Positions 1,151-43,632 of a stretch of 64,000 nt of DNA are shown piece after piece. This DNA is from Verrucomicrobiaceae bacterium. GTDB lineage: Bacteria > Pseudomonadota > Gammaproteobacteria > Pseudomonadales > CAMLJR01. The position numbers and the translations under genes are program-made. The DNA is taken from positions 83,952 to 147,951 of the forward strand of contig JAQGNY010000011.1 in the NCBI GenBank assembly GCA_028293825.1, given 5' to 3'. Every line of letters begins with the position of its first letter. The first letter of the stretch is position 1. The notes under the pieces were generated by a model that saw only the letters and a program-made list of their open reading frames with translations, did no database searches and had not been told where the DNA came from.

Positions 1151-1870
1151 TTACGGCGCTTTTGCATCGCTGACTGTCACCGGTTGACCGCGATAAATGG
1201 CCGGAAACAAACGTCTGAAGTTTTCTACTTTTGGCAGATCGTTATACACAATGTACGGATATTTGGGATTGCGAATCAAAAAATCCTGGTGATAACTTTC
1301 TGCCGGATAAAACTCTTTTAGCGCATCGACTTTCGTCACTGCAACATCCGAAAACACATGGGCGGCATTTAATTGCGCGATATAGGCCTGTGCAATATTT
1401 TTCTGCGTGTCATCGGCGTAAAAAATTGCCGAGCGATATTGCGTGCCGGTATCCGGACCTTGACGATTTAATTGGGTTGGATCGTGTACCACTGAGAAAA
1501 ATATCTGCAGCAATTCGCCGTAAGATACTTCCGCCGGATCGAAACTAATTTGCACCGATTCCGCATGACCGGTAGAACCGGAGCTGACGATATCGTAATG
1601 CGCATTCGCGCGATTGCCGCCGGAATAGCCCGACAATACTTTATGCACGCCGCGCACATGTTGATACACGCCCTGCACACCCCAGAAGCATCCGCCTGCC
1701 AGCACCGCAGTTTGCAATGCGCCGGCGCTTTTTGGGTTGTCGAGTTTCGGCGCGGGAATGACGACTGGTGCTTCGGCGGCATTTAATAGCGGCTGCCACA
1801 ACGCGGCAACGGCACCAAGCAGTACGAACATAAACAGCGGTACGGCTCGCTTCAATTTTTTGGAAATCAT
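1151..1870 (-). CDS. msrA: Peptide-methionine (S)-S-oxide reductase, N-terminal membrane/signal segment
   Basis: GGCFWGVQGVYQHVRGV active-site motif; hydrophobic N-terminus. Confidence 0.95.
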   Translation of the reverse strand: MISKKLKRAVPLFMFVLLGAVAALWQPLLNAAEAPVVIPAPKLDNPKSAGALQTAVLAGGCFWGVQGVYQHVRGVHKVLSGYSGGNRANAHYDIVSSGSTGHAESVQISFDPAEVSYGELLQIFFSVVHDPTQLNRQGPDTGTQYRSAIFYADDTQKNIAQAYIAQLNAAHVFSDVAVTKVDALKEFYPAESYHQDFLIRNPKYPYIVYNDLPKVENFRRLFPAIYRGQPVTVSDAKAP

Positions 1871-1949
1871 GTGACTGTCTCCAGTTGTTCTGGCCGCATC
1901 GAATATGAATTAACAGTCGACGCGAATCGAATTTCTAAAAAGAATATCG

Positions 1950-2600
1950 TCACGCGCGCGCGACGAAATGCAGTGCCACCGAATTCATGCAGTAACGCAA
2001 TCCGGTTGGTTTCGGGCCATCGTTAAATACATGCCCCAGATGTGCATCGCAACGGCTGCACGACACCGCTACGCGTACCATACCGAAGGTCGAATCCTTC
2101 GTTTCGGTTACATTGAAATGTGAAATCGATTGCCAGTAACTCGGCCAGCCGGTGCCTGATTCAAATTTGGTTTTGGCATCGAACAATGCCGTATCGCAAC
2201 AAATGCAGCGGTATAAACCCGCTGCGTGATTATTGACGTACTGCCCACTGAATGGCCGTTCGGTGCCTTCTTTTCGCGTGACTTGAAACGCGTCCGCTGA
2301 TAATTGTTTACGCCATTCGCTCTCGTCTTTAATCACGCGGGCAAGTTCTGTTGTGCCTTCGCTAACGCCGGCGACGGAGAAATTTTCAATCATAATTTTG
2401 TCACTCGATTTCGGACCGGACAGCGTGTCAGCTAATGTTTTATTCGCGAACGCAAAGCTGGCGCCCATCAGTAAACCAGTGCCGAGAAAACGTCGGCGCG
2501 ACGCGTTGATTGCTGTCGCTGCGCTTTCTAATAAATCAGCTTTGTTCGTCATTGCGCTCACCGTTTTTAACCGTAAATTTGTTGTTGAACCGTTAACCAA
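1950..2600 (-). CDS. msrB: Peptide-methionine (R)-S-oxide reductase, Tat-like signal (RRRFLGTG)
   Basis: ESGTGWPSYWQ, CSRCDAHLGHVF, RYCMNSVAL motifs; true start may be downstream of 2600. Confidence 0.95.
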   Translation of the reverse strand: MVNGSTTNLRLKTVSAMTNKADLLESAATAINASRRRFLGTGLLMGASFAFANKTLADTLSGPKSSDKIMIENFSVAGVSEGTTELARVIKDESEWRKQLSADAFQVTRKEGTERPFSGQYVNNHAAGLYRCICCDTALFDAKTKFESGTGWPSYWQSISHFNVTETKDSTFGMVRVAVSCSRCDAHLGHVFNDGPKPTGLRYCMNSVALHFVARA

Positions 2601-4458
2601 ATGTGAATGAATACGCCTGCACGCCGGCGTCTAAAAATTCGATGGTGAAAGTGCGATCACGGGTTTTCTCGCCTTGGCGAATCAGCTGATACAGCCGTTG
2701 CTCGCGGATTATACCTTCGCCATTTTTATCGATATCGCTACCGTGATCGTCTCCCGGTGCGGCGCCATCGATAGTGACGCGAAAACGTATCGGTTTATCG
2801 TCCACGGCCGGGCCCAACACCAAATGCAAATCGCGCGCATGAAAATGATAAATAATTTTGCTGTGAGTTTCGTTCGCTATCGCCTGTTCGCCGCCCACGG
2901 TCCATTTGCCGTCCAGCGCCCATTGATTCAGTTGCAACGTTTTTGGCGCGGTGTAAACGGCGGCTTGATCGCGTGCGAAAGGAATTGACGAACTGAAATT
3001 TTCCGCGCGCTCGTATCCGACATAGGTTTCTGGCGAGCCCACACTGCTGTCATCGGCGGCCATTTCAATACCTTTGGTCGGCACCGCCTGCGTTATCGTC
3101 GGCAGATTTTTTACGTTTGCCTCTTCCAACAATTTACGAATCAGCTGTTCGGACTCGTCGTAATTGCCTTCGCCAAAATGATGGCCGCGAATACGACCGT
3201 TGGCATCGATAAAATAATGCGCAGGCCAATAGCGATTGCCGAACGCCTTCCAGATGACATAGTTGTTATCGAGCGCGACCGGATACGTAACGCCGAGATC
3301 GCGCACCGCGCGGCGTACATTCTTCTCGTCTTTCTCGAACGCAAACTCCGGCGCGTGCACGCCAATTACCACTAGACCGTGATCTTTGTATTTGTCGTAC
3401 CAGTTTTTTACGTACGGCAACGTGCGCAAGCAATTGATGCAGGAGTAAGTCCAAAAATCGATCAGTACAACTTTTCCGCGCAAGCTCTCGGCAGTGAGCG
3501 GCGCCGAGTTAAGCCACGTGACCGCGCCATCGAGCGACGGTAATTCACCCTCATCGGCTACCGGTGCCGTCGATGCTTTGGCCGCCATCATCGCGCCGCC
3601 CATCATCGTATTGCTCATCACGTTCGAGTCGGCCCCGCCATTCATCGAATTGGTCATCGAGCCATTCATTGCGCTTGTCATGGAGCCATTCATCGCACCG
3701 TTCATTACGCCAGGCGTGCCGCCGTCCTGCGCGGATTCCGGGTTTAATTTAGCGAGCAAGGATTGTTCGAGGCGGTTAGTGCTCGACAGCGACAGCTGCG
3801 TAAGTAGTCCGGTGTCCAAGCCAAGGCTAATCGCAACTACCGCTGCGATAACCGCCACACCCAAACCGCGGCGCACCCATTCGCCGGCACCGAACGATTG
3901 TTTCAATGCGGCGAATAAACGATTACCGGCGCGCGTAGCAATCGCCAGCGAGGTCATCGCGCCGAGAGCGTAAGCAAACAACAGCAACGATGTTTGCGTG
4001 TTGGGGCCGGAAATCGCCGCGCCGGTTAATATCAATCCCAAAATCGGACCGGCGCACGGCGCCCACAAAAAACCGGTGGCGATACCGATCACAAACGACT
4101 GCAACACGCTGGCATTGCCACCGCTACCGGTGCGCTGTAATAAGCGATTGCCGAGCGCAACAAACGGTTTGGCGATCCAATCGGCCAAACGCCGGGACAA
4201 TAGCGCCACGCCGAAAGCCGTCAGCAACACCAACGCAAACACTCGCCCGTAGGTATTGAGGCGCACCGCCCAACCGCCGCCCACTGCCGCCAAAGTAGCG
4301 ATCACCGCAAACGTCAGCGCCATACCGATCAACAACGGCAGCGTACTTTTCGCAAATGAGCGCTCGGTGCGCGCAAACACAAACGGCAGCACCGGCAAAA
4401 TGCACGGACTTAGTATGGTGAGCGCACCGCCGAGGAAAGCGATTATTGCAATAAGCAT
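2593..4458 (-). CDS. DipZ-like protein: CcdA transmembrane domain, Met-rich linker, TlpA-like thioredoxin domain, C-terminal domain
   Basis: SPCILPVLPFVF and WAPCAGPILG (CcdA); FWTYSCINCLRTLPYVKNWY thioredoxin motif. Confidence 0.9.
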   Translation of the reverse strand: MLIAIIAFLGGALTILSPCILPVLPFVFARTERSFAKSTLPLLIGMALTFAVIATLAAVGGGWAVRLNTYGRVFALVLLTAFGVALLSRRLADWIAKPFVALGNRLLQRTGSGGNASVLQSFVIGIATGFLWAPCAGPILGLILTGAAISGPNTQTSLLLFAYALGAMTSLAIATRAGNRLFAALKQSFGAGEWVRRGLGVAVIAAVVAISLGLDTGLLTQLSLSSTNRLEQSLLAKLNPESAQDGGTPGVMNGAMNGSMTSAMNGSMTNSMNGGADSNVMSNTMMGGAMMAAKASTAPVADEGELPSLDGAVTWLNSAPLTAESLRGKVVLIDFWTYSCINCLRTLPYVKNWYDKYKDHGLVVIGVHAPEFAFEKDEKNVRRAVRDLGVTYPVALDNNYVIWKAFGNRYWPAHYFIDANGRIRGHHFGEGNYDESEQLIRKLLEEANVKNLPTITQAVPTKGIEMAADDSSVGSPETYVGYERAENFSSSIPFARDQAAVYTAPKTLQLNQWALDGKWTVGGEQAIANETHSKIIYHFHARDLHLVLGPAVDDKPIRFRVTIDGAAPGDDHGSDIDKNGEGIIREQRLYQLIRQGEKTRDRTFTIEFLDAGVQAYSFTFG

Positions 4459-5485: not shown

Positions 5486-6832
5486 TTACAACGAATGCAA
5501 AAATTGTTCGATTGCGCTGCGCTCGGCGCTCGATAACGCAACGAATCGCTGGCGCGCAATTTTTGCTTCGCCATCGTGCCACAGTATCGCTTCAGTCAAC
5601 GTGCGTGCGCGACCATCGTGCAGGTACGATTGGTATTCGCTAATAAATTCGGTTAGCCCAATTCCCCACAACGGCGGCGTACGCCATTCGCGACCCGATG
5701 CGAAAAAATCAGGCCGATTATCCGCAAGACCGTCGCCCATGTCGTGAAGCAACAAGTCAGTATAGGGATGAATTTCCTGTTTAACCAAATGCGGAAAACG
5801 CTCATTTTTTCCGGTGCGCAATGAAGGTTGATGACACAGAGCGCAGCCGCTGTCGCGAAATAGTTTTTCGCCACGCTGCACTTGCGGATCGCTTTTATCG
5901 CGCTGCTCGGGTGGCGCCAAATGCGTAAAATAAAACTCCAGCGCCGCTAATTGCACATCGGTTAATTCGGGATGCCCGCCACTCGGTGCCGCCAAACACG
6001 CGGCCTGTATCGGCGTACAATTCTCTTGTGGATGTAGTGTTGAGGTTATGCCCAAATCGCCGATCATTGCCGCTACGATTTGTTCACGCAGTGTCGCGGT
6101 ATTTGCTTTCGCGCCAAAGCGGCCGATCGCGCTCTTCTGTGTTTGCGCACTCCATACCCAATTTATTTTTCCGTTAACGCCGTCGGCTTTCTTTTGCTTG
6201 GCGAGACGCAACAAATAGCGCTCGTCGATTGCCTGCAGTAATCCCAAGCCGAATACGGGCGGTCCAACGCGCGCTGACGACAGCACGTCATCCAGTGCGC
6301 CGTAATTTAAATCGTGAAAACTGAGTAGCGGACGGCGCATTGAAATCACCGTGCCGTCATTCAGTTGCGTTTCGAATTCCTGCCACACAATCGTCGCGAT
6401 ACCCTCGCCGGGCACGCCGGGAATTCCCTGCTCGTTTAATTGATCGCCGTAATTCGGATGTGGCTTCGGACCGCCGTGGCTGTTTTCTCCCGGCACCGAT
6501 AAGCGCACCAACATCGATTGCATACGTTGCTGCGAATTTTCGGGCGCGCGACCACGGCCATTTTTCGGATGACAGGAAATACACGAGATGCGGTTATAGA
6601 GCGGGCCGAGCCCAACAGCCGTGTCGTTCGCCGGCGCAATCACCCAACTTTGATGAAACAGCGCGCGCCCGCGAAAAAACTGCTCGCGCTCGGTGTCGGT
6701 TAAATTAGGCAGCGGCTGACCGAACGCTTCGCGGCCGGCAACCGGTGCTGGCTGCTTTATTTTCGCTGTTGTGAATGCGCAGGAAAATGTGGCGATTAAA
6801 ATAATCAGCGCGCGGTTATGCCAACAATTCAT
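5486..6832 (-). CDS. Di-heme oxidoreductase (DUF1111/thiol oxidoreductase-like c-type cytochrome)
   Basis: CISCHPKNGRG and CALCHQPS heme motifs; ATGA overlap (6829-6832) with upstream gene supports this start rather than 6895. Confidence 0.85.
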   Translation of the reverse strand: MNCWHNRALIILIATFSCAFTTAKIKQPAPVAGREAFGQPLPNLTDTEREQFFRGRALFHQSWVIAPANDTAVGLGPLYNRISCISCHPKNGRGRAPENSQQRMQSMLVRLSVPGENSHGGPKPHPNYGDQLNEQGIPGVPGEGIATIVWQEFETQLNDGTVISMRRPLLSFHDLNYGALDDVLSSARVGPPVFGLGLLQAIDERYLLRLAKQKKADGVNGKINWVWSAQTQKSAIGRFGAKANTATLREQIVAAMIGDLGITSTLHPQENCTPIQAACLAAPSGGHPELTDVQLAALEFYFTHLAPPEQRDKSDPQVQRGEKLFRDSGCALCHQPSLRTGKNERFPHLVKQEIHPYTDLLLHDMGDGLADNRPDFFASGREWRTPPLWGIGLTEFISEYQSYLHDGRARTLTEAILWHDGEAKIARQRFVALSSAERSAIEQFLHSL

Positions 6833-8142
6833 ACCGCCGTATTTTCCAACAGTGCTTTGGCCTGCGTAACTCGATTGTCGGTTTCGGAGCGCCAAGTGCG
6901 CTCGATATCGCTGAGCGTTGGCTCTGCGCCTTCGATCCGTTCGCGAAATATTTTTTGCAGCTCAGCGCTTGCAGCCTGTTCTTCTCGCAACGGCGCCGCA
7001 GATAAAATAGCGCGCGCACTCGTCATCGTGCGCCCCAATTTTTCCTGCGCATGCAATTGCTTCCATAACGCCGCTTGCTCGTCGTGTCGATACGCCAAAT
7101 GCTGATCGAAATACGCAGCAATAACACCGAGCCGGTTGCGCCCGACATCGTTGTCGTAATCGAGCTCGCCGCGCGCCGCCGCATCGAACGGGCGGTAATA
7201 ATCCGCGTCGAGTTGCGTATACGCCGCAGGCAACACTGGCAATTTGCGAATGTCCGGATGTGTCAGTAATAACTGGCCTGCTTGGGACAACACGAACTCG
7301 GCGAATGCACGCGCACCATCGCCATTCGATGCGCTCGCGGTAATGGCGATGTGCCCGGGATTGATGCCGCTGCGATGCGGATACGCAAATTTTAATTTGG
7401 CGCCATTCGCTATTGCCGACGCGACAAAAAAGTCGATCGATAAGCCGACGGCGCAGCGACCGGATGCAACATCGTCGCTGACGAAACTGGCGCCGTGCTC
7501 CATCAACACCGATTGCGCGGCGATTTCATTCCACAACGCCCAGCCCTGTTGCCAACCGTATCCCTGCAAAACAATATCGATCATCACCGGTGCGAAACCA
7601 ACCCGCGCCGGATTTGGCAATGCAATCTGCCCGGCCAAACGCGGATCGGTTAAATCGCGCCAATCTTTTGGTTGCCGCACACCCAATCGTGTTAACGCCG
7701 ATTCATTGATAGCAAAACCGTAACCGGCCATTTCGGTCGCGACAAAATAATCGTCCGCATCGCGCAATTGCGTGTGGCCTATTTTTGTCGGCAGTTTCGT
7801 GCGGTCGATATCGAGCTTGCGCAAAGCGTTTTCGGATTTAAGCCGCGCGAAAGTTCGCGGCGACGCCGACCAATACACATCGACGCCACTTTGTTGCGGT
7901 TGTAATAAATACGGCAACGCGTCGCGCGGCATCCGCCAGATAATTTGCAGCCGATATTCCGGGTGCAATTTTTCGAATGCTGCTTCGAAGCGCGATACCA
8001 CCTCATCAGGATAACTGGTGACAACAACAACATTGCGCGGATCGGCGCGCAGCGGCAGCGCGACAGTGGCAAGAGCCACCGCCGAACCTTTTAGAAAATT
8101 ACGTCGATTAAGCGCGAATACAGTTGATTTAGAATTTGTCAT
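6829..8142 (-). CDS. Extracellular solute-binding protein, Fe(3+)-family-like, no adjacent permease or ATPase
   Basis: Tat-like signal RRNFLKGSAVALATVALPLRA; VVTSYPDEVVSRFEAAFEKLHPEYRLQII. Confidence 0.8.
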   Translation of the reverse strand: MTNSKSTVFALNRRNFLKGSAVALATVALPLRADPRNVVVVTSYPDEVVSRFEAAFEKLHPEYRLQIIWRMPRDALPYLLQPQQSGVDVYWSASPRTFARLKSENALRKLDIDRTKLPTKIGHTQLRDADDYFVATEMAGYGFAINESALTRLGVRQPKDWRDLTDPRLAGQIALPNPARVGFAPVMIDIVLQGYGWQQGWALWNEIAAQSVLMEHGASFVSDDVASGRCAVGLSIDFFVASAIANGAKLKFAYPHRSGINPGHIAITASASNGDGARAFAEFVLSQAGQLLLTHPDIRKLPVLPAAYTQLDADYYRPFDAAARGELDYDNDVGRNRLGVIAAYFDQHLAYRHDEQAALWKQLHAQEKLGRTMTSARAILSAAPLREEQAASAELQKIFRERIEGAEPTLSDIERTWRSETDNRVTQAKALLENTAV

Positions 8143-8172
8143 CGCTTGGCTCCCTTCAAAATATTGTCGCGC

Positions 8173-10164
8173 TTAAAAGCCAATGTTGAATTGCGCGAAA
8201 TAGGTACGGCCCGCTTCGGGAAAGCCTTCAGAATATTCGTAGAGTCGATCGAATAAATTACGCACGCCGATTTCCACCAGCAAACTTCTTTCAAACAAGC
8301 GATAGCCGGTTTTCAAGTTGGCGATGCCGAAGCCGCCGACTTGTTGTTTACCGTCGCTGGTTGAATAACGCGATGACGACACCTCAACGCTGCCGGTTGC
8401 CGTCCACAGATCGTCGATATGCCAGGTCGCGTCGCCGACCAATTTGTGGCGCGGCGTATCGGTGAGATGAACGCTGGAGTCGCTTATATTTTTGCGGCTG
8501 ATATAACCGTAACTGGCGCCGACATCCCACGAGTTAAGATCGGCGCGTACGCCGCCGTCGAACCCATCGATACGCACCTTGCCAACGTTTTGCATTTGCG
8601 TACACGGCGGTGTGGAACAGGCCGTCGCTGGAATACTAATCGCCTGTATTAAATCGCTGACTTCCGAGTGATAAACGCTGGCATTCCAATGCCATATTGT
8701 TGCGAAGACATCGTCATAGCCAATTTCAAAATGATTGGCGCGCTCGGACTTTAAATCGGCATTTGGCAGTGCCGTACCCATGCGATATGAATAACGATCT
8801 TTAATGGTCGGGAAGCGGCTTTTGCGTGCGAAGGTCGCATGCAATAAACCCGAATCGGTCGACTGATAAAACAGACCCAGCGTCGCGTTGTTGGCATTGC
8901 TGTCATCGCGTGCAAAATCCGAAACCACTCGCGTTTTTGCGTTGTAATCCTCGGCCTGCAAACTGTCGCGCCAATCGTGCGAAACCCCGGCAACCAGCGA
9001 TAATTTATCGGTCAGATCGTGCGTGTCTTCGAGCGCAATCGATTGCGTACGATCTTCATCGTGGCGAATCGGTTCGCCGGCGTTGTGTTCGCGATGCACA
9101 TCGTCTTTCCAGTGATACGCCGTTTTCAGCAGATTAATATCGCTCAACTGAAAATCGCCTTCGACGCTGGCGCCATTGGTGTAGTCGTCATACCAGCTTT
9201 GAAATGAAGAGCCTTTTTTCTGCGTGGTATAGGTGGCGTCGTCATACGCAAACAGCGAGTTTTGGTAAGTGTCGTGGAATGCTCGCGACTTCAACGTCGC
9301 GATGCCGATCTGCGTGCTGGAAATAAAATAAAGACTGTCCTTATCCCAATACGGCCATTGCCAGTAGCGCGCGGTTACGCCCGGTACCGATCCCGCATAC
9401 GGCGGGTTGCCTTTGACGCCGTGCTGCGAAATGTAATTCAGGCTGTATTCGTCGGTCGCATTCGGCGTGAATCCGACTTTTAAATTGTATTTGCGATCGG
9501 TGTTGTAACTGTTGTCACGATTGCCGCCATCTTCGGATTTCACCGCATCGAAACTATCCGGCAAGCGATAGAAGTTTTGATCGAGATATGACGCGCCGGC
9601 CTGTATGTACCAGTTGCCTTGATTGCTGCCGACATTGGCGTAAATACGGTTGCCATTATTTTTGCCGTTATCGGTCCAAGTCGCGCCACCGCCGACCTCG
9701 CCCTCGAATTCTTTTTGCGGTCTGCGGCTAACTAAATTAATTGCGCCGCCGAGTGTATTCGGCCCATAAATTAATGAGCTGAAACCTTTGGCAACATCAA
9801 TGCGCGACAAATCGAAGGTATTGAAACGACCGAGATCGACATAACCGTCGTACGGCACATACACGGGTATGCCATCGACAAAAACGGGCACTTGGCGCAA
9901 ATCGAAACCGCGCACGTAAACCATTTCCTCATTGCGCGCGCCGACTTTACTGATGCTGATCCCGGCGGTGGTATTGAGCGCGGTGCCGACCGTTTCCTTG
10001 TCGTACAGACGCATGGTTTTTACGTCGATGCTCTGGCCGTTTTCGATCGATTCGTGCAGCGCGCTGGCGGTGACGACAACCGTACCGAGCGTGAATATGC
10101 CGTCATCGGCGCCGAATGCAGCGCCGCTCGATGCAAGCAATAGCGAAATTACTGTCTTTCTCAT
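8173..10164 (-). CDS. TonB-dependent outer-membrane receptor
   Basis: Plug domain (GISISKVGARNEEMVYVRGFDLRQVPVFVDGIPVYVPYDGYVDLGRFNTFDLSRIDVAKGFSSLIYGPNTLGGAINLVSRRP) and C-terminal aromatic GF. Confidence 0.93.
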   Translation of the reverse strand: MRKTVISLLLASSGAAFGADDGIFTLGTVVVTASALHESIENGQSIDVKTMRLYDKETVGTALNTTAGISISKVGARNEEMVYVRGFDLRQVPVFVDGIPVYVPYDGYVDLGRFNTFDLSRIDVAKGFSSLIYGPNTLGGAINLVSRRPQKEFEGEVGGGATWTDNGKNNGNRIYANVGSNQGNWYIQAGASYLDQNFYRLPDSFDAVKSEDGGNRDNSYNTDRKYNLKVGFTPNATDEYSLNYISQHGVKGNPPYAGSVPGVTARYWQWPYWDKDSLYFISSTQIGIATLKSRAFHDTYQNSLFAYDDATYTTQKKGSSFQSWYDDYTNGASVEGDFQLSDINLLKTAYHWKDDVHREHNAGEPIRHDEDRTQSIALEDTHDLTDKLSLVAGVSHDWRDSLQAEDYNAKTRVVSDFARDDSNANNATLGLFYQSTDSGLLHATFARKSRFPTIKDRYSYRMGTALPNADLKSERANHFEIGYDDVFATIWHWNASVYHSEVSDLIQAISIPATACSTPPCTQMQNVGKVRIDGFDGGVRADLNSWDVGASYGYISRKNISDSSVHLTDTPRHKLVGDATWHIDDLWTATGSVEVSSSRYSTSDGKQQVGGFGIANLKTGYRLFERSLLVEIGVRNLFDRLYEYSEGFPEAGRTYFAQFNIGF

Positions 10165-10207
10165 ACAGGCTCCCCAATTTGAATTACTTAAGACGAGTTT
10201 TAGTTAT

Positions 10208-10231
10208 CGCTATATTTAACCAGATATATCG
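10208..10231. promoter_or_regulatory. ModE-like palindrome upstream of the TonB receptor operon
   Basis: CGCTATAT-N8-ATATATCG; 44-67 nt upstream of the receptor start. Confidence 0.6.
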
Positions 10232-10263: not shown

Positions 10264-13200
10264 CTAATAAACGTCACGCACGTAGCGTTTGGCGGCGGCA
10301 AGTTCGCACACATAATCCGCCGCCTTGGCCGCTGTCATCTCGCCATGCGCAGCCACCACGGCCTGCAACATACGATCGACATCCTTCGCCATCCGACTGG
10401 CATCGCCGCACACATAGAAGTGCGCACCGTCCTGCAACCAACGCCACAACTCGGCGCCGTGTTCGCACATGCGATCCTGCACATAAATTTTTTCGGTTTG
10501 ATCGCGCGAGAATGCCAAGTCCAAGCGCGTCAGAAATTTATCGGCGCGCCATTTCTCCAGTTCGTCCCGGTAATAAAAATCGGTTGCCGCATGTTGTTCG
10601 CCGAAGAACAACCAATTCTTACCGGTGGCGCCAGTGGCCTGACGTTCATGTAAAAACGCGCGAAACGGCGCTACGCCAGTGCCCGGCCCAACCATGATCA
10701 TCGGCACGGTGGGATCGCTCGGCGGGCGAAAATGCGCCGATTTTTGCAGAAATAACGACACCGCGCTGTCGTTGACGCGATCCGCCAGAAAAGTCGACGA
10801 CACGCCTTTGCGCTGTCTATTTCGATAGTGATAGCGCACGGCTGATACGGTCAGATGCACTTCGTTTGCGAACGCTTTTGGGCTGGACGAAATCGAATAC
10901 AGACGCGGTTGCAGGCGCCTCAACAAACTCTGCAGATCGGTCGGATTGAATTTCGCAGCGGGATGCTCGCGCAATACATCGACCAGTTGCTTGCCCCACA
11001 GCCAGTCTTTCAATTCATTTTCGCGCTCGGGTTTAAGCAACGCGGGTAATGGTTCAGCGACGGCGCTGCGCGCGGCGATCGCTTCCAACATCGCGCGCGA
11101 CGGCTGTGCAATTTCATAGTGATTACACAATGCGGCGTGCAGCGGAAATTCGCCAAGCTCGGGTAGTGCAACAGGCGTTTCTTTTGGTAACCCAAGTACG
11201 TCGATAAATTCATCGACCAGCTCGGCGCAATTGCTCGGCCACACACCCAGCGCATCGCCCGCTTCATATTGAAACGAATCGTCCAGTGCGAACGCGAAAT
11301 GTCGCGTCTCTTTACTCGATCCGTCACCGTTCAAACGCTGATTCATGATTAAGCGCGATGCGAATGGCGATTTTTTTGTGTATGCGGGCTCTGATTTTTT
11401 ATTGACAGTTATTGTGGATGAATCCAGCACTGCTGTTTTCGTAGCGTTTTTCTCAACAACGTTCTCGGCGTCATTCGCGCTGCCTTTACCTTCAATCAAT
11501 GCCGCAGAGATTGTATGCAGCCAATTTTTCGCTGGCGTTTCAAAATCGGAATCGCAATCGATGCGCGCACTTAATCGCTGTGCGCCAAGCGCTTCCAATC
11601 GCGCATCGAGCTTGCGACCGAAACCGCAGAACTGACCGTAGCTGGAATCGCCAAACGCGAGCACGCCGTAGCGTGTGCGTTCAAGTGCCGGTGCATTATC
11701 GGTTTGCAACGCATGCCACAGTGCTGCGCCGTTATCGGGTGGATCGCCGTCGCCAAATGTGCTGGTCAGCAATAATAAATTTTGCGCCTTGGATAAATCG
11801 GCGGGCGCGAAAGCATCCATGCTGTGCGAAGTCACGTCGAAATCGCTCGCTTTGAAATGTTCGGCACATTGATCCGCGAAACTCTCAACGTTGCCAGTTT
11901 GCGACGCCCATAAAATGGTTACCGATGTTTTCGCAATGACTGGAACTATTGATTGTGATGACATCGGCGATTGCGGTGGTGAATATGCCAGCGGTTGCGC
12001 GTCATAGTTGGATGTTCCAGACCGCGAAAATAAACCGGCGAGCATCCCGTCGATCAATATTCTTCGCGCCGGTTGCAGCGGCGCGTTTGCAGGAAGCGTC
12101 GGTACGCCGCCCGCCCCGCGCCCCGCCTCACTGCTTAACCCCAACAAAAAGCCCTGCAAATACAGCTGTTCTTGCGCATCCAAAACCGGGGCCTGCGCAA
12201 CCTCCAAACCGAGCAATTGAGCCAACGCGGTAATTTGCATGGTGTCGATTTCCGTAATCGTGGCAGTTCGGGTATCGGTATGGACCATCGTGCGCATGTC
12301 GGTTTTGGTGGCGATAGCTACGTTGCTGTCTTCAGTATCTGCGTTAGCGTCCGCGTCGATATGTACCACTGGAATTTCCTCCGCAACTTTGCACAACATG
12401 ACTGCGCAAAATTTAAATTCGGGTTGTTGCGAAATCGGATCGATGGCATCGCTGGTAACGGCATTGATCGCAAGGTCCTCGCCAAACACATCGTTCCAAT
12501 GAAACGGTGCGAAGCAATTACCGGCGCGTACGCGGTCCGTCACCACCGCCGGCAATATGGCGCGGCCGCGCCGCGAGCGAATTTCAACACGATCCTTGTC
12601 GCAAATATTCAATGCGGCCGCGTCTTCGGGATGCAACTCGACAAACGGACCGGGATTTAATTTATTAAGCGTTGCGATTTTTCCGGTCTTCGTCATCGTA
12701 TGCCATTGATGTTGCAGGCGACCGGTATTAAGCACGATGGGGAAATCAGGATCGGGCATTTCCGCTGCATCCATATGCGGGCGTGGAAAAAACACACCCT
12801 TGCCGCTCGCTGTCGCGAATGTCAGGCACGGTTGAGCGCCATCGTCATCGCGGCGCAATTTTTGGCTGACACCATCGTTCAAATACCGAATCGGATGCCG
12901 ATCATTGTTGTCGGCGGGCGGACACGGCCACTGCAATGAGGTTTCGCGCAGACGCGAATAACTCGCACCGCGAATGTCGTAACCGGTGTTCGGATTCCAG
13001 AATTTTTTTATCTCATCGAAAACGTCTGTCGCCGATGCGTAAGTAAATGCGTGCGCATAACCCATCGCGCAGGCGACGCGCGCGATAATTTGCCAATCAG
13101 CCATTGCATCGCCGGGCGGATCGATCGCGTGCTGCATCAGCGTTAAATTTCGCTCGGAATTAATCATCACGCCTTCGGCTTCGGCCCACAGCGCGCCCGG

Positions 13201-14538
13201 CAATAAAATATCGGCGTAACGATTGGTTTCGGTATCGAGGAACGCATCCTGCGTGATGACCAATTCGCAAGCTTGCAGAGCAGCGATAACATTTTTTCGA
13301 TTCGGCACGGTCGCTACCGGATTGGTGCAAATAATCCAGCAGGCTTTTATTTGTCCGCTTTGCATGGTGTCGAACATCGCGACGGTGCCGCCGCCGAGTC
13401 GCGTGTGCAAAGTGTCTCGCGCTACTCCCCAAGCTTGTTCGACAAAGTGACGATCGTCTTCGACCAATACTGAGCGCTGACCGGGCAAGCCCGGGCCCAT
13501 GTAGCCCATTTCGCGTCCACCCATTGCGTTGGGCTGGCCGGTCAATGAAAACGGACCACTGCCGAGACGGCAGATTGCGCCCGTTGCCAAATGTAAATTG
13601 CAAATCGCATTAGTATTCCAGGTACCGTGCGTGCTTTGGTTCAAGCCCATCGTCCAGCAGCTCATCCAATTGGCGGCATTGCCGATTAATTCGGCGGCCT
13701 GACAAATATCCGCAATATTTAATCCGGTAATTTCCGCAACTTTTCCCGGCGTGTAATCGGCGAGAAATTCCGGCATCGCCTCCCATCCTTCGGTGAACTC
13801 GGCGATGAATTCGGCATTCGTGTGATTATTTTTTTGCAGTAGATGCAACAAGCCATTCAACAGCGCGAGATCGGTACCGGGTTTTATTTGCAGGAATAAA
13901 TGTGCTTTGTCGGCGGTTGCGTTGCGACGCGGGTCGACCACGATTAATTTCGCGCCGGCTTTAATGCGATCCATCATGCGCAAAAATAAAATCGGATGGC
14001 AGTCGGCCATGTTTGCGCCGATGACGAAGAACACATCGGCGTGATCGAAATCCTGATACGAGCCCGGCGGTCCGTCGGACCCGAGCGATAATTTATAACC
14101 GCTGCCGGCGCTGGCCATGCACAGGCGCGAATTCGATTCGATCTGATTGGTGCCGATAAAACCTTTAATTAATTTGTTGCAAAGATATTGCGCTTCCAGC
14201 GACATTTGTCCGGACACATAAAAAGCAAACGCATCCGGGCCGTGTTCGTCGATAATTTTGCGCAAACGTTGTGCGGTATCGGCGATGGCCGCGTCCATTG
14301 CAAGTGGCGTTGGATCTTTATCGCGCTGCTGACGGATGTAGGCTTTTTCCAAACGACCGGAATTGCGCAACGCGCCCGCACTGGTCGCGCCTTTCGTGCA
14401 CAACCGTCCGAAGTTGGTCGGATGCGATTTATCGCCGCTGACTTTCACAACTTTGTTATCGGCAACTTCCAATAACATACCGCAGCCTACCCCGCAGTAT
14501 GGGCAAACCGTAGCGACTGTTTTATTTGCTGTGGCCAT
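10264..14538 (-). CDS. Fused assimilatory nitrate reductase (molybdopterin, 4Fe-4S) and CysJ-type flavodoxin/FAD/NADPH reductase
   Basis: CPYCGVGCGM N-terminus, molybdopterin oxidoreductase body, then ILWASQTGNVESFADQCAEHF flavodoxin and GPGTGVAPFRAFLHERQATG reductase motifs. Confidence 0.93.
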   Translation of the reverse strand: MATANKTVATVCPYCGVGCGMLLEVADNKVVKVSGDKSHPTNFGRLCTKGATSAGALRNSGRLEKAYIRQQRDKDPTPLAMDAAIADTAQRLRKIIDEHGPDAFAFYVSGQMSLEAQYLCNKLIKGFIGTNQIESNSRLCMASAGSGYKLSLGSDGPPGSYQDFDHADVFFVIGANMADCHPILFLRMMDRIKAGAKLIVVDPRRNATADKAHLFLQIKPGTDLALLNGLLHLLQKNNHTNAEFIAEFTEGWEAMPEFLADYTPGKVAEITGLNIADICQAAELIGNAANWMSCWTMGLNQSTHGTWNTNAICNLHLATGAICRLGSGPFSLTGQPNAMGGREMGYMGPGLPGQRSVLVEDDRHFVEQAWGVARDTLHTRLGGGTVAMFDTMQSGQIKACWIICTNPVATVPNRKNVIAALQACELVITQDAFLDTETNRYADILLPGALWAEAEGVMINSERNLTLMQHAIDPPGDAMADWQIIARVACAMGYAHAFTYASATDVFDEIKKFWNPNTGYDIRGASYSRLRETSLQWPCPPADNNDRHPIRYLNDGVSQKLRRDDDGAQPCLTFATASGKGVFFPRPHMDAAEMPDPDFPIVLNTGRLQHQWHTMTKTGKIATLNKLNPGPFVELHPEDAAALNICDKDRVEIRSRRGRAILPAVVTDRVRAGNCFAPFHWNDVFGEDLAINAVTSDAIDPISQQPEFKFCAVMLCKVAEEIPVVHIDADANADTEDSNVAIATKTDMRTMVHTDTRTATITEIDTMQITALAQLLGLEVAQAPVLDAQEQLYLQGFLLGLSSEAGRGAGGVPTLPANAPLQPARRILIDGMLAGLFSRSGTSNYDAQPLAYSPPQSPMSSQSIVPVIAKTSVTILWASQTGNVESFADQCAEHFKASDFDVTSHSMDAFAPADLSKAQNLLLLTSTFGDGDPPDNGAALWHALQTDNAPALERTRYGVLAFGDSSYGQFCGFGRKLDARLEALGAQRLSARIDCDSDFETPAKNWLHTISAALIEGKGSANDAENVVEKNATKTAVLDSSTITVNKKSEPAYTKKSPFASRLIMNQRLNGDGSSKETRHFAFALDDSFQYEAGDALGVWPSNCAELVDEFIDVLGLPKETPVALPELGEFPLHAALCNHYEIAQPSRAMLEAIAARSAVAEPLPALLKPERENELKDWLWGKQLVDVLREHPAAKFNPTDLQSLLRRLQPRLYSISSSPKAFANEVHLTVSAVRYHYRNRQRKGVSSTFLADRVNDSAVSLFLQKSAHFRPPSDPTVPMIMVGPGTGVAPFRAFLHERQATGATGKNWLFFGEQHAATDFYYRDELEKWRADKFLTRLDLAFSRDQTEKIYVQDRMCEHGAELWRWLQDGAHFYVCGDASRMAKDVDRMLQAVVAAHGEMTAAKAADYVCELAAAKRYVRDVY

Positions 14539-14703: not shown

Positions 14704-14727
14704 CGATATGTCCCACGGGATATATCG
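14704..14727. promoter_or_regulatory. ModE-like palindrome upstream of the nitrate reductase leader
   Basis: CGATATGT-N8-ATATATCG, same geometry as 10208-10231. Confidence 0.6.
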
Positions 14728-40501: not shown

Positions 40502-40894
40502 ATGCCCAGCACTACCGCCGACAAAAAAATAACTAAAGGCGCTCGCTTACGCGCGCAGTTGCGTATTTTGCTCGACGATGAAATTGCGCTGGGCCCGGGC
40601 AAAGCCGATTTACTCGAGGCAATACGTGAAACTGGCTCCATCTCCGCCGCCGGTAAAAAAATGAGCATGAGTTATCGGCGCGCATGGTTGCTGGTGGATG
40701 CAATGAATCGCTGTTTTAAATCGCCGTTAGTCGATACGGCAAAAGGAGGTGTCGATGGCGGCGGCGCACGACTCAGTGAACACGGCGCAACCGTATTGGC
40801 AAATTACCGGGCGATGGAACAAGCCGTGGCGCGCATCACGGATAAACATTTCGAAGCGATTAAACCGCTTCTGAAAAAAAATCCTGTCATCTGA
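40502..40894 (+). CDS. ModE-type winged-helix regulator, DNA-binding domain only
   Basis: GPGKADLLEAIRETGSISAAGKKMSMSYRRAWLLVDAMN; no C-terminal TOBE region. Confidence 0.88.
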   Translation: MPSTTADKKITKGARLRAQLRILLDDEIALGPGKADLLEAIRETGSISAAGKKMSMSYRRAWLLVDAMNRCFKSPLVDTAKGGVDGGGARLSEHGATVLANYRAMEQAVARITDKHFEAIKPLLKKNPVI

Positions 40895-40933: not shown

Positions 40934-40957
40934 CAATATATCCATGTAAATATAACG
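40934..40957. promoter_or_regulatory. ModE-like palindrome upstream of modA
   Basis: CAATATAT-N8-ATATAACG. Confidence 0.65.
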
Positions 40958-41016: not shown

Positions 41017-41790
41017 ATGCGCTGCACCCGTTTATCGATTCGCACATTGGCCGGATTATTTCTCAGCGTCATATTGCTGCAACCGCTGGCTCACGCAGAT
41101 GAAGTAAAAGCTGCCGTCGCTGCGAATTTCACTGCCGCGATCAAACAACTGACGCCATTATTCGAGCAAAAAACCGGGCACAAATTAGTTGCCAGTTTCG
41201 GCGCCACCGGTCAGCTGTACGCGCAAATTAATAACGGCGCACCGTTCGATGTTTTTCTCGCCGCTGACGATCAGGCGCCGCAGCAATTAATTGCCAGCGG
41301 CAATGCTGTCGCCGGTTCGCATTTTATTTATGCACGCGGACGTCTCGCGCTGTGGAGCAGCACGCCCGGTTATGTGGACAGCAACGGCGATATTTTGAAA
41401 AGCAATAAATTTGAAAAAATCGCGGTGGCAAATCCGAAAATTGCGCCGTACGGCAAAGCAGCCATCGAAACCTTAACCGCGCTAAAACTGCTCGAACAAT
41501 TGCAGCCGAAATTTGTTACTGGTGAAAATATCGCGCAAACCCAACAATTCATCAGTACCGGCAATGTACCGCTCGGCTTTATTGCACTCGCTCAAGTTAA
41601 CGCATTACCAGCAACTGAGCGCGGCAGCTTCTGGGTGGTACCGGATAAATTGCACGAGCCTATCGAGCAAGGCGCAGTGCTATTAAAGAATGCCAATGCT
41701 GACGCCAGTGCCGCTACTGCATTTCTCGCGTTTTTAAAATCGCCTGAAGCAGTCACCGTTATTCGCGAACTGGGTTACGAAGTCCCGTAG
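41017..41790 (+). CDS. modA: Molybdate ABC transporter substrate-binding protein
   Basis: EVKAAVAANFTAAIKQLTPLFEQKTGHKLVASFGATGQLYAQI. Confidence 0.95.
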   Translation: MRCTRLSIRTLAGLFLSVILLQPLAHADEVKAAVAANFTAAIKQLTPLFEQKTGHKLVASFGATGQLYAQINNGAPFDVFLAADDQAPQQLIASGNAVAGSHFIYARGRLALWSSTPGYVDSNGDILKSNKFEKIAVANPKIAPYGKAAIETLTALKLLEQLQPKFVTGENIAQTQQFISTGNVPLGFIALAQVNALPATERGSFWVVPDKLHEPIEQGAVLLKNANADASAATAFLAFLKSPEAVTVIRELGYEVP

Positions 41791-41803
41791 CTTTTTTGCG
41801 TCA

Positions 41804-42511
41804 TTGTTCGAAATAGGAAATGCGTCGTTGAATGTTGCAAGCATCGACTGGCAGCCCATTTGGTTGACGCTGCGACTCGCCAGCATTACCACGGTTGTAC
41901 TCATGGTGGCTGCGATACCTCTCGGCTGGTGGCTTGCGCGCACGCACTCGTGGATGAAGCAGCCGTTATCCGCAGTGTTTGCGTTGCCGCTGGTATTACC
42001 GCCTACCGTTCTCGGTTTTTATCTATTGTTGCTACTAGGCCCGCATGGGCCGGTTGGCGGACTTACACTTTCACTGGGCCTCGGCACCCTGCCCTTTACG
42101 TTTACCGGATTAGTCATCGCATCGAGTTTGTATTCGCTGCCGTTCGCACTACAGCCGATTCAAAATGCATTTGAAAATATCGGTAGTCGTCCATTTGAGG
42201 TGGCAGCAACTTTGCGCGCCACACGCTGGGATCGCGCGGTTAGCATCGCATTGCCATTGGCGCGCAATGGTTTGCTGAGTGCTGCGGTTTTGGCTTTTGC
42301 CCACACTATCGGTGAGTTCGGCGTGGTGTTGATGATTGGCGGCAATATTCCCGGCGCCACTAAAGTGTTATCGGTCGCCATTTACGATCATGTCGAATCG
42401 ATGGAATACGCGCAGGCGCATTGGTTAGCCGGCGGCATGCTCGCGTTTTCGTTTATTACTTTGCTCACGCTGTACATCGTCAGCGGCCGTTCGATGCGAA
42501 TTGTTCGATGA
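41804..42511 (+). CDS. modB: Molybdate ABC transporter permease
   Basis: PLVLPPTVLGFYLLLLLG; HTIGEFGVVLMIGGNIPG. Confidence 0.95.
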   Translation: MFEIGNASLNVASIDWQPIWLTLRLASITTVVLMVAAIPLGWWLARTHSWMKQPLSAVFALPLVLPPTVLGFYLLLLLGPHGPVGGLTLSLGLGTLPFTFTGLVIASSLYSLPFALQPIQNAFENIGSRPFEVAATLRATRWDRAVSIALPLARNGLLSAAVLAFAHTIGEFGVVLMIGGNIPGATKVLSVAIYDHVESMEYAQAHWLAGGMLAFSFITLLTLYIVSGRSMRIVR

Positions 42512-42569
42512 ACACTATTGTCCGATGAAAACTGTAGTTCGATGAGCACAATTGCCTGATGAAAACTAT
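42502..42569. repeat. Four 17-bp tandem repeats spanning the modB-modC junction
   Basis: TGTTCGATGAACACTAT / TGTCCGATGAAAACTGT / AGTTCGATGAGCACAAT / TGCCTGATGAAAACTAT. Confidence 0.9.
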
Positions 42570-43632
42570 CGAAGCGCGTTTTAACGGCACCTTCGGCAAC
42601 TTTAATCTGAATGTTGCGTTGAGTATTCCAGGCAGCGGCATCACTGCACTATTCGGCGAATCGGGTGGCGGCAAAACCAGCTTGCTGCGCTGTATCGCCG
42701 GACTGGAGCAATTAAATGGCGGCTATTTGCGCGTAAACGATGTCGTCTGGCAGGACCACAAAACATTTATTCCCACTCATCGGCGCGCGATTGGTTTTGT
42801 GTTTCAGGAAGCGAGCTTATTCGCGCACTTGAATGTGCGCCGCAATCTCGAATACGGCTATAAACGCACGCCGATCTCTGCACGGCGACTCGGCTTTGAC
42901 GAAGTCGTCGCTTGGCTCGGTGTGGAAAATTTTCTGCAGCAAATGCCGCACACACTATCGGGCGGACAGCGTCAGCGTGTTGCCATTGCACGCGCGTTAC
43001 TGAGCAGCCCACAGCTGTTATTAATGGACGAACCACTCGCCAATTTGGATTTAAACAGTCGCGCGGAAATTCTGCCGTATCTCGAACAACTGCACGATCG
43101 ACTCGACATCCCCGTTATTTACGTCAGCCATACGCCGGCCGAAGTGGCACAACTGGCCGATCATTTAGTGTTGCTCGAACGCGGACATATCACTGCCAGC
43201 GGGCCCATTAATGAAATGCTGACGCGCCCAGATTTAACACCGGCGCAACAGGATGAGGCGAGCGCCGTTATGGAAGGCCGCGTAATCGAGCACGATCTTA
43301 TATTTCATTTAACGCAGATTGCAGTACCGGGTGGCACCGTTGCAGTCGCATTTCGCGAACTACCTATCGACCATGCGGTGCGCGTGCGGATTCTCGCGCG
43401 CGACGTAAGCATTGCACTCACTCCGCCGCAAAATACCAGCATCACCAATGTGCTGCCGGCACGTGTTATCGATATCACGGAAGCGCCGAACAGTGCTCAA
43501 GCACTGGTACGACTCGATCTTGGTGGCACAATTATTCTATCGCGGATTACGCGCCGCTCAGTCGTACTGTTAGATATAAAAACCGGATCGCCTGTTTACG
43601 CACAGGTGAAAAGCGTTGCGTTAATATGCTGA
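42559..43632 (+). CDS. modC: Molybdate ABC transporter ATP-binding protein
   Basis: GESGGGKTSLLR, LSGGQRQRVAIARALL, C-terminal TOBE. Confidence 0.95.
   Translation: MKTIEARFNGTFGNFNLNVALSIPGSGITALFGESGGGKTSLLRCIAGLEQLNGGYLRVNDVVWQDHKTFIPTHRRAIGFVFQEASLFAHLNVRRNLEYGYKRTPISARRLGFDEVVAWLGVENFLQQMPHTLSGGQRQRVAIARALLSSPQLLLMDEPLANLDLNSRAEILPYLEQLHDRLDIPVIYVSHTPAEVAQLADHLVLLERGHITASGPINEMLTRPDLTPAQQDEASAVMEGRVIEHDLIFHLTQIAVPGGTVAVAFRELPIDHAVRVRILARDVSIALTPPQNTSITNVLPARVIDITEAPNSAQALVRLDLGGTIILSRITRRSVVLLDIKTGSPVYAQVKSVALIC

Follow-up and report, generated by a model that had tools for sequence, protein, structure and literature searches.

A conserved TonB receptor operon preceded by a ModE-type operator as a likely molybdenum scavenging system

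The operon and its molybdenum-related surroundings

What does a cell import through a TonB-dependent receptor that is encoded together with an orphan binding protein and a di-heme enzyme, downstream of a ModE-type palindrome? The question is raised by three consecutive minus-strand genes in the window, the 64,000-nucleotide stretch of DNA analyzed here. The first gene (8173-10164) encodes the outer-membrane receptor P0001 (663 aa, family A8), in which both domains of TonB-dependent receptors, the plug PF07715 and the beta-barrel PF00593, are present. It is followed by the genes for an orphan periplasmic binding protein (SBP) of the SBP_bac_6 type, P0002 (6829-8142, 437 aa, PF13343, with a Tat signal), and for the exported di-heme oxidoreductase (DHOR) P0003 (5486-6832, 448 aa from the ATG at 6832); these two genes overlap by ATGA. 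No gene for a permease or ATPase adjoins the operon in the window. P0003 meets both DHOR criteria, a PF06537 match (E=1.6e-91) and two CxxCH motifs (residues 84-88 and 330-334), which are invariant in 28 sequences. Its structural model is of moderate quality (pLDDT 80.9), resembles cytochrome c peroxidases and hydrazine synthase only weakly and gives no mechanism. P0001 did not reach the cut-off of any NCBIfam model, including those for substrate-specific TonB receptors (siderophore, heme, B12, PQQ), and no close paralog was found in the genome, which, judging from 44 barrel matches, encodes about 40 TonB receptors.

The palindromic operator CGATATATCTGGTTAAATATAGCG (10208-10231) is located 44-67 nt upstream of the receptor ATG and matches the pattern perfectly, with the layout CGCTATAT-N8-ATATATCG. 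The palindrome search detected a second box (14704-14727) upstream of the nitrate reductase fusion gene and a third one (40934-40957) upstream of modA. Altogether, the window contains three palindromes (six strand matches), whereas shuffled sequences would be expected to give 0.66 matches. Upstream of E. coli modA the motif recurs with a single mismatch (CGTTATATTGTCGCCTACATAACG). In the complete 4.34 Mb genome these three boxes are the only sites with up to one mismatch, and the receptor box is the sole perfect one. At the two-mismatch level 17 sites were found versus 22 for a reversed-pattern control; since this count does not exceed the control, only the top sites are informative within a single genome. 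Assuming uniform base composition, chance alone would produce about 0.7 sites with no more than one mismatch in a genome of this size, and the comparative evidence is therefore decisive.

Several further genes of the window are related to molybdenum. The gene at 10264-14538 (minus strand, 1424 aa) encodes a molybdoenzyme which we take to be an assimilatory nitrate reductase fused to a flavodoxin/CysJ-like reductase, an assignment made from motif knowledge without a Pfam scan. On the plus strand, the open reading frames of modA (41017-41790), modB (41804-42511) and modC (42559-43632) encode the molybdate ABC importer (modABC, 41017-43632); when these were used as queries, their relatives were found to adjoin the operon in other genomes. 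A ModE DNA-binding domain protein without Mop domains, P0005, is encoded at 40502-40894 (plus strand, 130 aa); its match to TIGR00637 (E=3.5e-24) is below the curated cut-off, and it shares 35% identity over 89 aa with E. coli ModE. The operon thus fulfills the two criteria of a ModE regulon member that can be read from sequence, an operator upstream and a ModE encoded in the genome. The next gene downstream of the operon, on the same minus strand, encodes the molybdate-binding di-Mop protein P0004 (4610-5038, 142 aa, two TOBE domains, TIGR00638 E=1.6e-45, PF03459), and mop genes adjoin the operon in other loci too. ModE may therefore be split in this window into the DNA-binding-only P0005 and, far from it, the di-Mop protein beside the operon; it can be inferred that the two perhaps share molybdenum sensing. 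Downstream of the di-Mop gene (1151-4458) we observed a row of MsrA-like, MsrB-like and DsbD-thioredoxin fusion genes, which probably form a periplasmic methionine sulfoxide repair set.

The first-pass annotation had reported three consecutive minus-strand genes with an ATGA overlap and without permease or ATPase, and this held entirely when coordinates and domain matches were checked. Its palindrome 44-67 nt before the receptor, with the geometry seen at the nitrate reductase gene and modA, was likewise confirmed by the window and genome scans. It had overlooked the di-Mop gene and the DNA-binding-only nature of the ModE protein.

Conservation of the box and linkage to mod genes

When the binding protein was used to search 84,980 species genomes, 44 loci were obtained, comprising 43 orthologs and one weak cyanobacterial match. 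The orthologs and four loci from a further search make up a set of 47 loci, in which Alpha-, Beta- and Gammaproteobacteria are all represented. These loci are phylogenetically related (several are from Zoogloea, Methylophilus and Azospirillum), and the counts do not represent independent events. All three genes occur together in 42 of the 47 loci. Regions upstream of the receptor gene match at least 12 of the 14 box positions in 18 of 38 cases, whereas 0.02-0.05 are expected from dinucleotide shuffles; at least 11 positions are matched in 24 of 38, versus 0.6 expected. The best box spacer is 8 (18 loci), followed by 6 (6 loci). Across the whole loci 66 boxes were detected, spread over 34 of the 47, compared to 0.4 expected by shuffling; the remaining 13 loci, some of which are truncated, contain no box with 12 or more matches. 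The control, 18 loci (329 kb) of the ABC-linked sister clade of the binding protein, contained a single box. In Azospirillum the binding-protein gene is the first in order and the box is found approximately 65 nt upstream of it, which shows that the box stays ahead of whichever gene comes first when the gene order differs.

Genes for molybdate transport and sensing (modA, modB, modC, modE or mop) are present in 23/47 loci. In L065 the order is modE-modABC-receptor-SBP-DHOR, followed by a modD-like gene, and L030 carries a modD of the same family. In L038 the receptor, SBP and DHOR genes are followed directly by modB-modC (L038:1577-6076 spans the stretch from SBP to modC), no modA was found in the 12.9 kb locus, and ModB and ModC are the only permease and ATPase. 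Because modB-modC follow the DHOR gene without modA, it is conceivable that the binding protein of this locus stands in for ModA and serves ModBC. ModE was detected in all 31 operon-bearing genomes tested, compared to 170 of 300 Burkholderiales genomes. L036 contains its own tonB-exbB-exbD-receptor-PF00174-SBP-DHOR cluster (L036:4958-12621), which is preceded by two ModE boxes and in which the PF00174 protein is fused to a cytochrome c domain.

As a separate observation, a second TonB receptor family is encoded together with a PF01497 binding protein beside the operon in L028, L031, L037, L064 and L066, in most of them with a FecCD permease, an ATPase and a truncated globin; the full set of second receptor, BtuFCD proteins and truncated globin is present in L028, L031, L064 and L066.

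The first-pass annotation had named box conservation in orthologous operons as the test of its proposal; this test was run, and conservation is far above chance. It had named a clear iron or copper response as an outcome that would refute the proposal; the Fur consensus is not enriched upstream of the receptor, and expression data are not available. The molybdenum link, which had been put forward with caution, is thus supported by box conservation, the mod neighbors and the lack of Fur enrichment. A molybdate chelate as ligand remains plausible and unproven, and a nitrate-linked ligand has no support except for the adjoining nitrate reductase gene.

Receptor modules and the binding-protein clade

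Across the loci the receptor is the constant part, which is combined with interchangeable periplasmic modules. The receptor family is present in 15 of 300 Burkholderiales genomes with one copy each: eight receptors are accompanied by SBP and DHOR, five by a PF01497 binding protein (three of these also by a FecCD permease and an ATPase) and two by a small exported PF00174 protein. The binding protein of the operon's own clade, termed the Mo clade, occurs in eight of the Burkholderiales genomes, and all eight also encode the receptor. Outside the orthologous loci, receptor relatives without this SBP are encoded with a BtuF/FecCD/ATPase importer (L147, L149, L153, L166, L170) or with a PF00174 protein (L148, L151, L168). 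A box with 12-14 matches is present in 7 of 11 receptor-family loci lacking the SBP (a count that leaves out the outgroup L171). L166 combines a divergent modE, a perfect box, DUF2478 and BtuFCD; L167, which comes from the taxonomic order to which the window's genome belongs, has a single-domain modE, a box and the receptor; L168 carries modABC, modE, box, receptor and PF00174; and L170 has a perfect box, BtuFCD, a methyltransferase gene, a ModD-like gene and the receptor. The relatives in L147, L150 and L152 have no box. In the genome of L152 no ModE was detected above the cut-off, and in L150 the receptor gene is divergent to a nitrate reductase gene.

Two small protein groups were observed in these loci. 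The small exported PF00174 proteins (oxidoreductase molybdopterin-binding fold, about 180-195 aa; L148:8509-9054, L151:3344-3883, L168:11700-12281) adjoin the receptor and mod genes. At L152:8499-8900 and L166:11474-12046, a gene for a DUF2478 (PF10649) protein separates the receptor gene from that for the PF01497 binding protein, and a molybdenum-related function of DUF2478 is conceivable.

The AlphaFold2 model of P0002 (pLDDT 91.8) meets the SBP_bac_6 fold criterion, and its nearest solved folds are AfuA, FbpA and P5PA. The only domain matches are SBP_bac_6/1/8/11; no match to a ModA family was found in NCBIfam. Binding proteins of the Mo clade (at least 40% identity) have the receptor and DHOR as neighbors instead of a permease and ATPase, and a permease and ATPase of the Afu/Fbp type are absent beside them in the window and in the orthologous loci. 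In the sister clade (about 30% identity), permease and ATPase are encoded alongside in the 18 control loci, which contain no convincing mod neighbors (one weak ModC match). Ahead of the helix at 184, the sister clade has a loop with the sequence SxPSRSGTTH; the residues S176, S181, T184 and H185 are replaced by P, V, A and P in the Mo clade, where W69 and E137 are invariant gains. It can be inferred that the small-anion site of the ancestor no longer exists and that the Mo-clade proteins accommodate a ligand which is larger or of another kind. Since both the ABC partners and the inherited anion loop were lost, P0002 probably does not bind bare molybdate; this inference rests on the replaced loop, and no ligand was tested.

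Proposed function, rival explanations and related systems

Taken together, the structure of the operon, the conservation of its box, its linkage to mod genes, the co-occurrence with ModE, the absence of a dedicated permease and the loss of the anion loop show that the operon is real, conserved and molybdenum-linked. In the absence of expression, binding or uptake data, we consider it likely that the operon scavenges molybdenum by a TonB-dependent route under the control of ModE. The binding of ModE to the box is inferred, as is the direction of regulation: ModE probably represses the operon when molybdenum is sufficient, as for modA, given that the box is only a short distance from the start, in a position like that at modA. 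When molybdate becomes scarce, ModE would dissociate from its operator close to the promoter, allowing synthesis of the receptor. The ligand is likewise inferred; a molybdenum complex would pass through the receptor, the best candidate being molybdate on a catecholate siderophore or another organic ligand, and a bare-metal substrate remains possible. The orphan binding protein would hold the complex in the periplasm, where the di-heme enzyme, in a role that is only inferred, may act on the ligand or the metal by redox chemistry. Molybdate freed in this putative release step would enter the cell via the molybdate ABC transporter, either through ModA or by direct docking on ModBC, and in this proposal the operon has no permease because the freed molybdate would use that transporter. 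The complete importers among the alternative modules and the PF00174-cytochrome c fusion of L036 fit import with a periplasmic redox step. A catecholate molybdophore made by the organism itself is unsupported, with no isochorismate synthase above the cut-off in the genome; NRPS condensation domains were found in one protein, which has two. A bolder reading, towards which we lean slightly less than against it, is that chelated molybdenum is carried across the outer membrane by a proteobacterial receptor family which is controlled by ModE and works with interchangeable modules in the periplasm; here, a former ABC binding protein and a di-heme enzyme would strip molybdate by redox chemistry and pass it to ModABC.

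ModE activates some molybdoenzyme genes, and the operon could instead import something other than molybdenum, for example part of a cofactor or a source of nitrogen; ModE would then act as an activator when molybdenum is plentiful. The E. coli ModE record lists a dual regulator, the operon abuts the nitrate reductase gene, and the L150 receptor relative is divergent to one. However, the genes that recur beside the operon function in molybdate transport and sensing and do not point to a single enzyme, receptor relatives travel with complete importers of the metal-chelate type and a modD-like gene, and the box is near the start like that of modA, so that this explanation is unlikely. We regard it as very unlikely that the operon is an iron-siderophore system which answers to molybdenum since molybdate competes for catechol siderophores. 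Receptor and binding protein do come from superfamilies in which iron systems are common, and DHOR proteins are known from iron-regulated operons, but the neighbors are mod genes and, with no Fur enrichment upstream, iron regulation was rejected.

Less likely still is a division of labor in which only the receptor is related to molybdenum and the binding protein and DHOR serve periplasmic oxidative protection or sensing. In its favor, the receptor occurs without the pair, and the pair is found apart from the receptor in L034, L111/L154 and L113/L155; against it, the trio is kept together in nearly all orthologous loci, and every Burkholderiales genome with the Mo-clade binding protein has the receptor. 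The box could also be a chance palindrome, and the single-genome estimate given above would allow this. Its conservation over three classes is far above the shuffles, and the shuffles together with the sister-clade and spacer controls all but exclude this explanation.

The scavenging system proposed here resembles methanobactin import, in which the receptor MbnT, the binding protein MbnE and the di-heme enzyme MbnH participate (PMC3621798, PMC7558416): both import, or would import, a metal chelate with a TonB receptor, a periplasmic binding protein for which no inner-membrane partner is known and a di-heme enzyme. Methanobactin import handles copper, whereas the operon is linked to molybdenum and has no chelator biosynthesis genes. 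MbnE is OppA-like, in contrast to the AfuA/FbpA-like P0002, and MbnH is of the CCP/MauG type (TIGR04039), while P0003 is a DHOR that matched no NCBIfam model, TIGR04039 included. Because the binding-protein and di-heme families differ, the operon is not a member of the methanobactin system. With the AfuABC/FbpABC-type ABC importers it shares the fold and ancestry of the binding protein, but not the permease, the ATPase or the anion-loop residues. MolBCA is a molybdate importer of H. influenzae belonging to the BtuCDF class. Its domain make-up (PF01497, FecCD, ATPase) is that of the alternative module found with receptor relatives; this module is absent from the window, and its substrate is untested.

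In Azotobacter chroococcum, one sentence of the genome paper mentions that a gene for a TonB receptor, "potentially for molybdate", adjoins modG, modE and modABC (Achr_39320-39290; PMC4465626). This receptor was described within an ABC-type transporter and without regulatory analysis, and it is not part of a receptor-SBP-DHOR set; the cluster probably consists of the receptor and a BtuCDF-type module as in L147/L153/L166, although the sequences were not compared. A molybdenum TonB receptor has thus been guessed in genome annotation, and we found no characterization in the literature searched. The operon shares its operator motif and neighboring genes with the ModE regulon and modABC; known ModE targets act in inner-membrane uptake, cofactor synthesis and as molybdoenzymes, and the operon would add an outer-membrane receptor, of which no characterized example as a ModE target was found in the literature searched. 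A description of the receptor-SBP-DHOR operon was not found in the open-access literature searched, and unseen accounts may exist. We conclude that the operon probably represents a variation on the known TonB-dependent import of metal complexes.

A shortage of molybdenum restricts the use of nitrate and the fixation of nitrogen, and a large share of the element in soil and water is present as complexes with organic ligands. Through this operon a defined receptor family becomes accessible, together with a putative regulator from which the conditions of its production can be predicted and a putative periplasmic release step that can be tested; Azospirillum, Zoogloea, Azoarcus, Methylobacillus and Herminiimonas are tractable hosts. 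If the proposed function is true, molybdenum would join the metals handled by TonB systems, and ModE would gain an outer-membrane target.
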